Shown in pieces: positions 30,065 to 36,493 of a stretch of 64,000 bases of DNA; within the stretch, counting starts at the first letter, position 1, and each line of letters opens with the position of its first letter. Position numbers and translations under genes: made by a program. Source of the stretch: Leifsonia poae (GTDB lineage: Bacteria > Actinomycetota > Actinomycetes > Actinomycetales > Microbacteriaceae); NCBI RefSeq assembly GCF_020009625.1, contig NZ_JAIHLP010000002.1, positions 3,844,001-3,908,000 of the forward strand. Direction: 5' to 3'. Under the pieces are notes generated by a model. It searched no databases, had not been told where the DNA came from, and saw only the letters and a list, made by a program, of their open reading frames with translations.

Positions 30065-30928
30065 TCAGGGCAGAACGTAGCCATCGGGCGTCTCGACGGC
30101 GAGCCCGTCGGCGAGGAGGCCCGCCAGGGCCCGCTCGCGTTGCACCGCATCCGGCCAGACCCCCGCGATCTCGCCGGGCGTGACCGGGATGTGCGACGCG
30201 CGCAGCTCCGCGAGGATCAGCCCGCGCACCTGTCGGTCGCTTCCTTCGTACTTCTTCTGGACGGTCTTGCGCGGCCCGTCGTACGGAGGAGATCCGGCCA
30301 GGCGCCAGGCGCACACCTCGCGGAGCGGGCATTCGTCGCAGCGTGGCGTGCGCGCCACGCAGACGATCGCGCCGAGTTCCATCATGCCCGCGTTGAAGGC
30401 GGCCGCCGCCGGCCGGCCGGCCGGCAGCAGGGTCTCCATCGCGACGAGGTCCCGTTTCGCCGACGGTGGCCCCGGTTCGCCCTGTCCGTCGATGGCCCGG
30501 GCGATCACCCGGCGGATGTTGGTGTCGACCACGGGGTGCCGGTTGCCGTAGGCGAAGACGGCGACGGCCCGGGCGGTGTAGTCGCCGATGCCGGGAAGCG
30601 CGAGCAGCGCATCCACATCTTCAGGGACGACGCCGTCGTGCCGCTCGGTGATGGCCACGGCGCAGGCGTGCAGCCAGAGCGCACGCCGCGGGTAGCCGAG
30701 CGACTTCCAGGCGCGCACCGCCTCCCCGGGTGGCACGGCGGCCAGGTCGGCCGGTGTCGGCCACCGGGTCAGCCACTCGTCGAGCCGAGGGATGACGCGC
30801 GCCACCGGTGTCTGTTGCAGCATGAACTCGCTCACCAGCGTTCCCCAGGGCGTGAAGCCGTGCCGTCGCCACGGCAGGTCGCGCTTGTTCTCGTGGTACC
30901 AATCGACCACGGTGTCGGCGATAGTCAC
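30065..30928 (-). CDS. mutY: A/G-specific adenine glycosylase
   Basis: A 287-residue base-excision-repair enzyme that removes adenine opposite 8-oxoguanine. The helix-hairpin-helix LLALPGIGDYTARAVA and catalytic Asp in VVDTNIRRV are present, as is the [4Fe-4S] motif C-X6-C-X2-C-X5-C in CVARTPRCDECPLREVC. It lacks most of the C-terminal NUDIX-like domain, as is usual for short actinobacterial MutY. The GTG start at 30926-30928 overlaps the stop of the upstream CGNR gene (GTGA); the longer open frame to 31378 is a shadow. Confidence 0.94.
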   Translation of the reverse strand: MTIADTVVDWYHENKRDLPWRRHGFTPWGTLVSEFMLQQTPVARVIPRLDEWLTRWPTPADLAAVPPGEAVRAWKSLGYPRRALWLHACAVAITERHDGVVPEDVDALLALPGIGDYTARAVAVFAYGNRHPVVDTNIRRVIARAIDGQGEPGPPSAKRDLVAMETLLPAGRPAAAAFNAGMMELGAIVCVARTPRCDECPLREVCAWRLAGSPPYDGPRKTVQKKYEGSDRQVRGLILAELRASHIPVTPGEIAGVWPDAVQRERALAGLLADGLAVETPDGYVLP

Positions 30929-31500
30929 GTGTTCTTCGCCTTCTGGCGGAAGGCGCGCACCCGCAGACGGGTGGAGCAGGTGTCGCAGCAGGCCTTGCGC
31001 AGATGGCTCGGGTCGAGGTAGATCTTCGCGCAGGCGGCGTCCGAGCAGACGCCGAAGTCGGCGGGGTGGTGGGCGAGGTCGGCGACGGCGCTCTGGGCGA
31101 GGCGGCCGAGCGCATCCCGGGTGTTCTCGGGGCGCGTCGGGGTCACCGCGCCGGTGTCGCCGATGGTGAACGCGGGGGCGGATGCTCGACTGAGCTCGCC
31201 GAGGAGGGCGGCGGCGTCGGCGGCGGGAGGGGCGTCGGCCGTGAGGGGGAGCGTGTGCTGGGTGGAGGAGAGGGTGCTGTGGGCGAGGAGCCGGATGGCT
31301 TCCCGGGTCGCTCGGGCCAGCGCGAGGTCTGTCTCGTCGGGCGGCGTCGCCGGGGGGAGTCCGACCGTCGTGAGCCATTCCGTGAGCCGATCGGGGTCGG
31401 TGAGGCGTTCCAGCGGCTGCGGCGAGTAGGCGTGACGCCGGGTGCCGAGCAGGTCGGTCCAGGCGGCACCCGTGTTATAGACCAGTTCGAGATCCGACAT
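30925..31500 (-). CDS. CGNR-type zinc-finger / ABATE putative regulator
   Basis: A 191-residue protein. An ABATE-like N-terminal domain (MSDLELVYNTGAAWTDLLGTR) is followed by a Cys-rich C terminus: Cys152, Cys157, Cys171-172 and Cys175, then a basic helix RLRVRAFRQKAK. The usual CGNR tetrad reads CSTR here. The start at 31500 is six bases after a TACACT -10 (leaderless). Two identical GTAACG-N8-CGTTAC palindromes separate it from the divergent EamA exporter and overlap both promoters, so I infer that it represses itself and the exporter. It is translationally coupled to mutY. Confidence 0.8.
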   Translation of the reverse strand: MSDLELVYNTGAAWTDLLGTRRHAYSPQPLERLTDPDRLTEWLTTVGLPPATPPDETDLALARATREAIRLLAHSTLSSTQHTLPLTADAPPAADAAALLGELSRASAPAFTIGDTGAVTPTRPENTRDALGRLAQSAVADLAHHPADFGVCSDAACAKIYLDPSHLRKACCDTCSTRLRVRAFRQKAKNT

Positions 31501-31509
31501 GGACCCAGT

Positions 31510-31564
31510 GTAACGGTTTGACACGTTACTTGGCGAGTGCGAGAGTAACGACATGATCCGTTAC
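31510..31564. promoter_or_regulatory. Twin GTAACG-N8-CGTTAC operator
   Basis: Two palindromes with identical six-base arms and eight-base spacers lie at 31510-31529 and 31545-31564, 35 bases apart. The first covers the promoter of the CGNR gene (its TACACT -10 shares a half-site); the second spans the ATG of the EamA gene at 31553. The symmetry and duplication are directly visible; binding by the adjacent CGNR protein is inferred. Confidence 0.75.
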
Positions 31565-32554
31565 ATCACCTGGAGCCGGCTGCTGCCGTTCCTGTTCCTC
31601 CCCGTCTACGGATCGGGGTACATCGCGGGAGCGCTCGGCCTGCAGACGATGCGGCCGTTCGCGATGACTTTCTGGCGGTTCACGATCGCGGAAATCGTCG
31701 TGATGACGATCGCCCTCGTGCGGCGCACCCGCTGGCCGCGCGGCTGGCGACAGTGGTGGCCGATCCTGGCGGTGGGGCTCCTGATCCAGGTGGTGCAGTT
31801 CGGCGGCAATTACACCGCGATGGGGCTCGGGATGCCGGCCGGACTCACCTCGCTCATCGCCGGCAGCTCGTCGTTGATGATGGCGATCGGAGCGGTGCCG
31901 TTCCTGCGCGAACGTCTCACCGGATGGCGTCTGGTCGGGGTCTTCGTCGGCTTCATCGGAATCGCGGTGGCGTTGGCCGGCCACCTCGGCGTTCCAAGCG
32001 GGCCGGCCGGTGTGTTCGCGGCGTTCTGCGCGGCCGTCGGCTATGCGGGCGGTTCGTTGCTGCAACGAAAGTGCCTGGTGGGTGTGGACATCTGGTTGAG
32101 TGTGGCCATCCAGTTCGCGGTCGCGGCACCGGTGGCGTTCGTGCTGGCCGAGGTCACGGGTGGTGTCGCCGTGCCGCTGAGCGCCGGAACGCTCGTGCCG
32201 CTCGGCTGGATCGCGCTCGTCAACTCGGTCGGCGGGATGTGGCTGCTCGGGCAGATGCTGCGGCACCACACGGCCGCGACGCTGAGCGCCTGGAGCAACC
32301 TCATTCCGCCCTTCACCGCGCTTCTCGCGATTCCCTTCCTCGGGCAGCCGATGTCGGTCTCGCTCGGGATCGGGCTTGCCATCGCCCTGACGGGAACCGC
32401 CCTGGTGGTGCTTCCGTCGAGGCGTGGCGCAGAGGGAGCGAACGCAGCGGGGACGAACGCGGCGGGAGCGAACGCAGCGGGGACGAACGCAGCGGGGACG
32501 AACGCGGCGGATGCAGAGCCCACACACAGTGACGATCGGGTCCCGGCGGCTTAG
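31553..32554 (+). CDS. EamA/DMT-family transporter
   Basis: A 333-residue membrane protein with about ten helices in two EamA repeats (first SRLLPFLFLPVYGSGYIAGALG; second from about residue 145). Such proteins export amino acids, nucleosides or drugs; the substrate here is unknown. The last 40 residues are not part of the fold and comprise five GANAA/GTNAA pentapeptides encoded by a 15-base tandem repeat. The ATG lies inside an operator palindrome and the transcript is probably leaderless. Confidence 0.88.
   Translation: MIRYITWSRLLPFLFLPVYGSGYIAGALGLQTMRPFAMTFWRFTIAEIVVMTIALVRRTRWPRGWRQWWPILAVGLLIQVVQFGGNYTAMGLGMPAGLTSLIAGSSSLMMAIGAVPFLRERLTGWRLVGVFVGFIGIAVALAGHLGVPSGPAGVFAAFCAAVGYAGGSLLQRKCLVGVDIWLSVAIQFAVAAPVAFVLAEVTGGVAVPLSAGTLVPLGWIALVNSVGGMWLLGQMLRHHTAATLSAWSNLIPPFTALLAIPFLGQPMSVSLGIGLAIALTGTALVVLPSRRGAEGANAAGTNAAGANAAGTNAAGTNAADAEPTHSDDRVPAA
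32435..32509 (+). repeat. Five 15-base in-frame tandem repeats at the end of the EamA gene
   Basis: Units GGAGCGAACGCAGCG and GGGACGAACGCGGCG (one to three differences) repeat five times and encode GANAA/GTNAA. The copy number may vary between strains without disturbing the frame. Confidence 0.85.
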
Positions 32555-34319: not shown

Positions 34320-35792
34320 TCAGCTGCGAGGCGTCTCGTCGACGAGTGAGGCGCCCTGTGCCGATCCGATGGCGGCTTCGCTCTCGGCGATCTCGGTCGT
34401 GCGGTCGAGCCGGACCGCGCGGATCCCGGACGGCAGTGCCAGTGAGATGACGGCGGCGACGGCCAGCACGCCGGCGGCCACCCAGACGGCCGGGATCGCG
34501 GCGCTGACGTACCCGGTCGGGGTGAGCGTGCCGCCGGCACCGGTGAACACGGCTGTCAGCACGGCGACACCGAGGGCGACGCCGATCTCGCGAAGCGTGG
34601 AGTTGGTGCCGGAGGCCTTCGCGTGATCGGCGGGGCGCATGTTGACGAGCACGGCGGTCGAGCTCGGGGCGAACACCAGCCCCATTCCGATGCCGGCGAG
34701 GAGGAACGGGGGCCACATGGCCGAGTACGGGAGCGTCGCCGAGAGAGTGAGGGCGATCCAGCCCATCGACACGGCCAGCAGAACGAGGCCGAGGAGGATG
34801 GGCAGTCGCGTGCCGGTTCGCGGCGAGAGCAGCCCGGTCAGCGGGGCGACCACCATCGGGGCGAGTGTCCAGGGCATCGTCATCACGCCGGCCTCCAGCG
34901 GGGTGTGGCCCTGGACCACCTGCAGGAACTGGATGAGGATGAACACGGCGCCGAAGATGCCGAAGCTGAAGGTGACGCCCACGAGGTTCGCCACGGTGAA
35001 GCTGCGGTCGCGGAACAGCCGGAGGGGGAGGAGCGGGGCCGCGCTTCGGTTCTCCCAGAACAGGAAGGCGACGAGCAGGGCCGTGCCGGCGATGAGGGAG
35101 GTGAGCACTTCGGCGCTGTCCCAGCCGGCATCGTTGCCGCGGACGATGCCGAACACGAGCCCGAGCACTCCGAGTCCGGCCAGAACCAGTCCGACCACAT
35201 CGGCGCGCACGCGGGCGCCGAAGCTGTTCGGCAGCACGGCCAGCACCAATGGCACGGCGATCACGCCCAGAGGGACGTTCAGCCAGAAGATGGCCTGCCA
35301 GTTCCATCCCTGCACCACCGCGCCGCCGATGAGGGGCCCGGTCGCGACGCCGAGGCCGGAGATGCCGCCCCAGATGCCGATTGCGGCGGGGCGCAGCCGT
35401 TCGCTCACGCTTCCGGCGAGCAGGGTGAGGGAGAGGGGCATGAGGGCGGCGGCCCCGACGCCCTGGATCGCGCGGGCGCCGATCAGCATCCACGGCTCGG
35501 TGGCGAGCGCGCTCGCGGCGGAGGCCAGGGTGAAGATCACGATGCCGGCGAGGAAGACCGTTCGCCGCCCGAACCGGTCGCCGAGGGCCACGGCCATCAG
35601 CATGAAGGTGGCGAAGCTCAGGGTGTACGCGTTGACGACCCATTGCAGCTCTTCGATGGAGGCGTTGAGGTCGCGGGCGATCACCGGCAGGGCGCTGGTG
35701 ACCACGAGATTGTCGAGCGTCGCCATGAACATCGGGAGGGATGCGGCGACGATGGCGAGCCACACGGGGATGCGCCGGCTGGTGGAGGTCAT
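34320..35792 (-). CDS. DHA2-type MFS multidrug transporter
   Basis: A 490-residue, 14-helix drug:proton antiporter of the EmrB/QacA group. LPMFMATLDNLVVTSALPVI is the typical motif D1 in helix 1, GDRFGRR is motif A, and GLGVATGPLIGGAVVQGWNW is motif C. I use the ATG at 35790-35792 (MTSTSRRIP); an upstream start at 35876 would place the coding sequence through the operator region. It is divergent from the tetR gene with paired palindromes between, so TetR probably represses it. Substrates are unknown. Confidence 0.92.
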   Translation of the reverse strand: MTSTSRRIPVWLAIVAASLPMFMATLDNLVVTSALPVIARDLNASIEELQWVVNAYTLSFATFMLMAVALGDRFGRRTVFLAGIVIFTLASAASALATEPWMLIGARAIQGVGAAALMPLSLTLLAGSVSERLRPAAIGIWGGISGLGVATGPLIGGAVVQGWNWQAIFWLNVPLGVIAVPLVLAVLPNSFGARVRADVVGLVLAGLGVLGLVFGIVRGNDAGWDSAEVLTSLIAGTALLVAFLFWENRSAAPLLPLRLFRDRSFTVANLVGVTFSFGIFGAVFILIQFLQVVQGHTPLEAGVMTMPWTLAPMVVAPLTGLLSPRTGTRLPILLGLVLLAVSMGWIALTLSATLPYSAMWPPFLLAGIGMGLVFAPSSTAVLVNMRPADHAKASGTNSTLREIGVALGVAVLTAVFTGAGGTLTPTGYVSAAIPAVWVAAGVLAVAAVISLALPSGIRAVRLDRTTEIAESEAAIGSAQGASLVDETPRS

Positions 35793-35823
35793 GGGGCGAA
35801 CCTGTCTGTCGAGAACTTCCGGG

Positions 35824-35869
35824 GTAATCGGATGATTACAAGACGTGACACTAGTAATCAACTGATAAC
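35824..35869. promoter_or_regulatory. Twin GTAATC-N4-GATTAC palindromes between MFS and tetR
   Basis: GTAATC-GGAT-GATTAC (35824-35839, perfect six-base arms) and GTAATC-AACT-GATAAC (35854-35869, one mismatch) start 30 bases apart, close to three helical turns. The second overlaps the TAACCT -10 of tetR (35866-35871), and the first lies where the MFS promoter is expected. The arrangement fits two TetR dimers controlling both promoters. Confidence 0.75.
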
Positions 35870-35878
35870 CTGTCAAGT

Positions 35879-36493
35879 GTGACCGACAGAATCAGCGAAC
35901 GCATCCCAGCGGGGGAGCGGCGCGAACAGATCCTCGCCGCCGCGAGCCTGGTGTTCGGCGAGCGCGGGTACTTCGGCGCCACCACAGACCAGATCGCCAA
36001 AGCGGCCGGTATCAGCCAGCCCTATGTCGTGCGCATGTTCGGCAGCAAGGAGACCCTCTTCGTCGAGGTGCTCGCGCGGGCCCTCGACAAGGTGCTCGTC
36101 GCCTTCCGTGGCACCGTCGACGGTTGGAAGTCCGACGGGTCGCCCGACGACGAGATCGCCCGACGCATCGGCACCGCGTACGTGAACCTCATCGAGGATC
36201 GCGGCATCCTGCTCTCGCTGATGCAGTCGTTCAGCATGGGGCACGACCCGATGATCGGCGCGAAGGCGCGCGACGGGTTCATCGCCATCTACCGACTCCT
36301 GCGCGACGAGGCGGGTTTCGAGCCCGAGCAGGTGCGTGCGTTCCTGGCCGAGGGGATGCTGCTCAACACCCTGCTCGGCCTCCGGCTGCCCGAGCAGTAC
36401 GGTCTCGACGAGGCCGCGACGGAACTCCTCGAGTGCACCTTCCAGTCGAAGCTGCAGCTCGTGCTCGACGTGGTCGGCGAGAAGAGCGCATGA
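35879..36493 (+). CDS. TetR-family repressor
   Basis: A 204-residue TetR regulator. The N-terminal HTH (REQILAAASLVFGERGYFG, TTDQIAKAAGISQPYVVRMF) is followed by a divergent ligand domain. The GTG start is seven bases after a TAACCT -10 (leaderless). It faces the MFS transporter across the twin palindromes. Its stop overlaps the truB ATG (ATGA), so a drug-efflux regulator is translationally coupled to a housekeeping tRNA-modification gene. Confidence 0.92.
   Translation: MTDRISERIPAGERREQILAAASLVFGERGYFGATTDQIAKAAGISQPYVVRMFGSKETLFVEVLARALDKVLVAFRGTVDGWKSDGSPDDEIARRIGTAYVNLIEDRGILLSLMQSFSMGHDPMIGAKARDGFIAIYRLLRDEAGFEPEQVRAFLAEGMLLNTLLGLRLPEQYGLDEAATELLECTFQSKLQLVLDVVGEKSA

Follow-up and report, generated by a model that had tools for sequence, protein, structure and literature searches.

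A paired palindrome between a CGNR/ABATE regulator gene and a divergent EamA transporter gene in Leifsonia poae, a probable case of a wider CGNR family operator

In TetR, MarR and similar systems, an autoregulated one-component repressor is paired with a divergent exporter, and palindromic operators lie over both promoters. A layout of this kind is found in the window analysed here, a stretch of 64,000 nucleotides from Leifsonia poae (family Microbacteriaceae), in which a gene for a CGNR/ABATE protein faces a gene for an EamA-family transporter and two palindromes lie at the junction. The locus raises the question of whether these palindromes are the DNA target of the CGNR protein. The CGNR finger and the ABATE domain were named in 2009 on the basis of one structure (PMC2954205); as far as the available text of that report goes, DNA binding and transcription regulation are only proposed for CGNR/ABATE proteins, and no operator is named for Jann_2411, the protein described there. 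Likewise, a search for CGNR, ABATE, DUF1470 and EamA with GTAACG yielded no paper on an operator by title or abstract, within literature that consisted largely of papers available without subscription. The features of the locus are the following:

30065..30928, minus strand: mutY-like adenine glycosylase gene (PF00730, PF00633, PF10576)
30925..31500, minus strand: CGNR/ABATE regulator gene, 191 aa (profile matches, finger alignment, AlphaFold model compared with 3h0n)
31507..31512, minus strand: presumed -10 of the CGNR gene, TACACT-N6-ATG, read from the sequence, leaderless
31510..31529, no strand: putative operator site 1, GTAACG-GTTTGACA-CGTTAC
31518..31523, plus strand: presumed -35 of the EamA gene, TTGACA, read from the sequence
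31541..31546, plus strand: presumed -10 of the EamA gene, GAGAGT, read from the sequence, with the ATG 6 bases on, leaderless
31545..31564, no strand: putative operator site 2, GTAACG-ACATGATC-CGTTAC, covering the EamA start codon
31553..32554, plus strand: EamA-family (DMT) transporter gene, 333 aa, the presumed target (PF00892, 81.3 bits)

The pair of palindromes is confirmed and lies beyond chance. Both are exact copies of GTAACG-N8-CGTTAC, with identical arms and spacer length as the initial annotation had stated, and their starts are 35 bp apart. The gap between the two genes (31501-31552) indeed measures 52 bp; the pair does not fit into it as had been claimed, since the last 12 bp of site 2 already belong to the coding part of the EamA gene. 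In the whole genome of 4,144,138 bases, exactly two copies of the pattern are present, both at this locus, and the reversed pattern, which served as a control, has none; 60 Markov-1 versions of the window also contained no exact copy. Perfect palindromes with 6-bp arms and an N8 spacer number 40 in the window, and pairs with the same arms less than 200 bp apart occur twice, the second being an overlapping CCGCGG pair. When three mismatches were allowed, the count in the window was at chance level (14 vs 13.5 expected), so that the signal resides in the exact pair.

The regulator gene encodes a protein of the ABATE-CGNR type with a divergent finger motif. It passes the ABATE profile PF07336 (57.4 bits, curated cut-off 24.4) and falls short of the zf-CGNR profile PF11706 (19.3 bits, curated cut-off 24), which the relatives L092, L094, L004 and L081 pass with 39 to 48 bits. 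The literal CGNR motif is absent: residues 175 to 178 read CSTR, the replacement that had been noticed at the outset, and the finger as a whole reads CSTRLRVRA; other matches show CASR, CANR, CGVR or CQNR. The four cysteines of the zinc finger, C152, C157, C171 and C175, are invariant across 17 sequences and align with those of the 3h0n finger, as in a treble clef. The AlphaFold model (pLDDT 86.5) contains the ABATE fold followed by a C-terminal finger, and a Foldseek search with it returned 3h0n as the sole match at E<0.001 (E 8.1e-6, probability 1.00, TM 0.54/0.56, rmsd 6.3). Thus, the two-domain layout and all four finger cysteines are common to the Leifsonia regulator and Jann_2411 (PDB 3h0n), whereas the finger motif is CQNR in the latter and CSTR in the former, and the rmsd of 6.3 indicates that domain packing or details differ. 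In the available text on Jann_2411, a four-cysteine treble clef is described, as is a likely dimer with a cavity where its subunits meet (PMC2954205).

It had further been claimed that one palindrome overlaps the -10 of the regulator gene and that the other spans the transporter start codon, and both placements hold: site 1 and the presumed TACACT share three bases (TAC), and the EamA ATG at 31553 lies inside site 2. In addition, the spacer of site 1 contains the presumed EamA -35, TTGACA. The -10 consensus is TANNNT, to which the presumed EamA -10, GAGAGT, is a poor match. The same anatomy is seen at all five divergent pairs of an EamA gene and a CGNR gene whose finger is of the RVR type, namely in the present genome (G000) and in G314, G310, G123 and G917. 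In each of these loci, TACACT-N6-ATG is present, the palindrome and the TACACT hexamer overlap by three bases where the former ends and the latter begins, and the EamA strand carries TTGAC(A/G) in the spacer of site 1, followed by N17, NANNNT and a start codon 6 or 7 bases later. Read in this way, both the CGNR and the EamA transcripts would be leaderless.

The EamA assignment is borne out by two separate PF00892 stretches in the transporter, as expected for the two-repeat architecture. Near its C-terminus (window 32436-32510), near-tandem GAACGCAGCGGGGAC-like repeats encode NAAGTNAAG-type residues. On the other side of the locus, the GTG start of the mutY-like gene overlaps the stop of the CGNR gene (GTGA), and this overlap is kept in the three genus members with an orthologue (including G310 and G314). 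The CGNR gene and the mutY-like gene are therefore probably co-transcribed, and a DNA-repair gene may come under the control of the regulator.

With a probability of about 0.82, we favour the reading that a dimer of the CGNR protein acts as a ligand-responsive repressor of its own promoter, which would also serve mutY, and of the EamA promoter, and is released by a ligand. As far as sequence reaches, this interpretation is well supported. The protein would be a one-component, DNA-binding regulator; the two treble-clef zinc fingers of a dimer would contact one GTAACG arm each, and two dimers would cover the 55 bp of the divergent promoter region. Occupancy of site 1 would block both the -10 of the regulator gene and the EamA -35, and occupancy of site 2 would block both the start codon and the transcription start of the EamA gene, such that the CGNR gene, the downstream mutY gene and the EamA gene would all be repressed without ligand. 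A small molecule bound in the ABATE domain or in the dimer cavity would then release the regulator, and the EamA transporter might export that molecule or a relative of it. The divergent transporter, the autoregulation and the shared palindromic operators proposed here resemble TetR/MarR-type pairs; however, those regulators use a helix-turn-helix, whereas here a putative C-terminal treble-clef finger on an ABATE domain would contact the DNA. It is also conceivable that the CGNR protein binds these sites and acts mainly as an activator, or has a dual role in which it activates the EamA gene when bound to ligand and represses itself. Two sites at near-constant spacing could serve looping or activation, but site 1 over the presumed CGNR -10 and EamA -35 and site 2 over the EamA start occupy positions typical of repression, and we regard predominant activation or a dual role as unlikely.

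The absence of palindromes upstream of orthologous pairs, which had been named beforehand as the outcome that would speak against a CGNR autorepressor, was not encountered: all five divergent RVR-type CGNR-EamA pairs, which come from two families and three genera, have two sites at the same promoter positions. Within the genus, the site pair is present in three of 28 genomes (the present one, G310 and G314), and a close orthologue of the regulator (E<1e-60) occurs in the same three, the G310 and G314 proteins being 57-61% identical. The other genus genomes either gave weaker matches only (14 genomes, best 1.2e-14) or no match at E 0.01 (11 genomes). In all three members with the pair, the spacing between the sites is 35 bp and the distances to both start codons are equal. 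When 15 genomes were checked for single exact sites, these were found in G310, G314 and G629 only, each just upstream of a CGNR gene. A scan of genome contigs gave one locus, L033 from Leifsonia sp. 71-9, a member of this genus, with a regulator that is 56% identical and with site sequences equal to those of G310. In 398 family genomes, the paired pattern was found in the present genome only, in a draw that did not contain G310 and G314 and with a pattern blind to GTAAT and N7 forms.

The two more distant pairs show which parts of the arrangement can vary. In both G123 and G917 the spacing between the sites is 37 bp, and in G123 all four arms read GTAAT in place of GTAAC. In G917 (family f31), which has two N8 sites and an EamA neighbour, the start codon is one base nearer to the start of the site than in the window, and the right arm is consequently read in another frame (MKSL vs MIRY in the window). 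The operator letters are kept despite the other reading frame, which argues for selection on the DNA and not on the protein. A database protein encoded on a 978-base contig, P0002, is 76% identical and extended at its N-terminus by RNVSNRYT, which matches the translated operator of the window and gives indirect support for one more regulator with such an operator.

Sites of this kind also accompany CGNR genes next to other partners. In G629, one N8 site with longer arms lies ahead of an operon of a CGNR gene and an alpha/beta hydrolase gene. In other Actinomycetes, GTAACG-N7-CGTTAC sites, mostly two of them, precede CGNR genes that are divergent from CMD and phosphotriesterase (PTE) genes. These neighbour assignments were verified by Pfam for one CMD, one PTE, two EamA genes and one hydrolase, and for the others they rest on likeness. 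Among 169 genomes of the genus to which G1001 belongs, seven have a relative at E<1e-30, and five of six new loci carried two sites; the sixth was matched from residue 94 only and stood outside the scoring. Protein orthologues were restricted to the query genome itself in the families of G629 (1/197) and G917 (1/5). Since the sites accompany the RVR-type CGNR genes through a change of partner from EamA to CMD/PTE and alpha/beta hydrolase genes, they are tied to the CGNR gene and not to EamA. Two regulators with a Lys-type finger lie by genes that, judged by likeness, are possibly EamA genes, one with a site (L097) and one without (L119).

Upstream regions of CGNR genes were then compared at large. 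The training set consisted of 133 CGNR-hit loci, which represent 131 different genes (L061 is the gene of L012, and L134 that of L072). Loci were dropped as repeats of one place (L033, L090, L091, L106, L161, L168) or as weak or cut (L025, L030, L044-L051, L053-L055, L112), and 9 further matches were left out; L167 was retained though its match starts at residue 94. Inverted repeats with arms of 4, 5 or 6 bp and spacers of 0 to 20 were counted in the 260 bp upstream and compared with the rest of the loci. The top dyads belong nearly all to one inverted-repeat family, given here with the number of loci and the background in brackets: AACC-N9 (46; 0), GAACC-N9 (24; 0), CGTCA-N13 (18; 1), GTAAC-N11 (17; 0), TCACC-N9 (17; 3), GTAAC-N9 (12; 0) and GTAACG-N8 (5; 0). 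Unrelated dyads stand lower in the list, such as GCTGG-N3 (10; 1) and CTTCC-N6 (5; 0), the latter from near relatives. The pattern GTAAY-N7..13-RTTAC has 50 upstream matches in 36 of the 133 loci and none in the remaining 345 kb of those loci. Upstream of the CGNR gene in L010, about 75-80 bp from the start of the match, lies TGTCAATACGGTTATTGACA, a palindrome with 8-bp arms that also contains AACC-N9-GGTT. Six loci (L128, L129, L130, L138, L140, L146) carry CGTCA-N13-TGACG in the register of GTCACC-N9-GGTGAC with the inner part free, and the CGTCA-N13-TGACG dyads are maybe a further subclass of site.

With the site classes fixed, 74 of the 133 training loci carry a strict site and 83 do so when a loose class is included (shuffle means 0.12 and 0.64), figures that come from the set on which the classes were chosen, with kin loci that are non-independent and two genes counted twice. 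The held-out set comprised 33 of the 34 leftover matches of one search, the 34th being already in training as L077. Here, 14 of 33 loci have a strict site and 17 have one with the loose class included, against shuffle means of 0.03 (largest 1) and 0.19 (largest 2), some of the genes being from genomes already used in training; the other 16 are without any site, loose class included. Outside the upstream regions, the loose class and CGTCA-N13 together occur 17 times in the training loci (347 kb) and four times in the held-out loci (38 kb). The palindrome pair of Leifsonia poae is thus probably one case of a wider CGNR family operator.

The finger can be read in frame at 90 loci, of which 20 are of the RVR type, 62 of the Lys type (one gene counted twice) and 8 of other types. 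The RVR loci have G-type sites only (18), both types (1) or none (1), the Lys loci have C-type sites (40) or none (22), and none of the eight others has a site. Among the 58 loci with an RVR or Lys finger and a single site type, the match is complete: G-type (GTAAY-N9/10) for 18 of 18 RVR fingers and C-type (ACC-N9-like) for 40 of 40 Lys fingers. Accordingly, neither an RVR finger with C-type sites only nor a Lys finger with a G-type site was met at the 90 loci. Distances between neighbouring sites are also restricted, with 28 of 38 falling between 35 and 43 bp. In a 39-row tree that included the finger columns, a branch with a support of 90/87 separates the RVR rows from the others, and the match between finger and site is therefore an association by clade and not proof of a code. 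We nevertheless lean towards a broader picture, in which CGNR/ABATE proteins would make up a large group of bacterial one-component regulators that share a single operator, a GT(A/C)AC-like inverted repeat, whose inner base (G/C) and half-site spacing (7, 8 or 9) would be set by the finger helix (xRVRA vs xKxxA) and the subfamily, in other words by a treble-clef recognition code.

These data bear on whether the sites belong to the CGNR protein at all. Another regulator encoded elsewhere, for instance of the TetR type, might own them, the CGNR gene being a regulated passenger; GTAACG-N8-CGTTAC resembles a generic dimer operator, and a TetR gene is present in the window at 35879-36493. However, in several genera the sites recur next to CGNR genes whose neighbours differ, their type matches the finger type, and both the site pair and the orthologue are missing from 25 of the 28 genus genomes, all of which makes a foreign owner highly improbable. 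That the palindromes act in RNA as a leader hairpin, arose by chance or form another DNA mark is less probable still and close to negligible: inverted repeats are able to form hairpins, but site 1 would lie outside both presumed leaderless transcripts, the shuffled windows contained no copy, and the sites are kept across families while their spacers changed. Repression by the CGNR protein itself remains the favoured reading. Its regulator-transporter layout is familiar; the novelty lies in a probable DNA target for proteins of this family, for which the literature searched names none. The locus offers a concrete candidate target for one member and candidates for many others, along with a set of naturally varying fingers and sites, and suggests EamA transporters, CMD/phosphotriesterase genes and alpha/beta hydrolases as the genes controlled. 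The TetR gene in the window is itself divergent from an MFS-like gene (34320-36493), a second regulator-transporter pair nearby.

The genome of Leifsonia poae contains a second CGNR gene with a site of its own. The shorter pattern GTAAC-N9..11-GTTAC occurs three times in this genome, as the two sites described above and as GTAACC-N9-GGTTAC at C2:1633799, which abuts the start codon of the second CGNR gene (L213, near 1633090-1633820 of C2). The two genes have in common a GTAAC inverted repeat right at the start codon; they differ in the form of the site, in the finger, which is CGNRAKVRA and hence of the Lys type in the second, and in the next gene, which by eye is pxpA-like. The coding sequence of the second gene (L213 positions 789-1520) lies in two frames and looks interrupted. 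Ten sites were picked by hand among the matches listed, with symmetric ones favoured; four lie by a CGNR gene (L213, L214, L215, L217) and six do not. Across 29 genomes, the short pattern gave 0 to 7 sites each vs 0 to 5 for the control, except for G629 with a control count of 20; with counts so near to the control, GTAAC-N9..11-GTTAC alone is not specific in larger genomes.

Plasmid records were searched with P0001, which gave five weak matches, and with an actinobacterial CGNR query, which gave 147 records, 11 of which were examined; start codons were guessed in the unannotated records (Paraburkholderia, Rhizobium jaguaris, Sinorhizobium fredii). A Rhodococcus opacus plasmid carries GAACC-N9-GGTTC at -62, and two Streptomyces plasmid records carry sites of the loose class. 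Near to the fixed classes but outside them, and noted post hoc, are GGAAC-N11-GTTCC in S. fredii, ACC-N9-GGT in Ensifer and AAACC-N9-GGTTT in Sphingobium; for R. jaguaris, no such site was seen among the matches listed. In Pantoea, Caballeronia, Paraburkholderia and Duffyella (L205, L206, L207, L209), GTTAC-N11/12-GTAAC lies upstream of the CGNR gene with the half-sites facing outward, an orientation that the repressor model leaves unexplained in these four proteobacterial loci. The sites in other phyla are leads only. In one further record (L208, 1-256), the PLSDB label NDM-10 (100% identity) is placed on a gene whose annotation reads metal ABC transporter binding protein, which looks like a labelling oddity.
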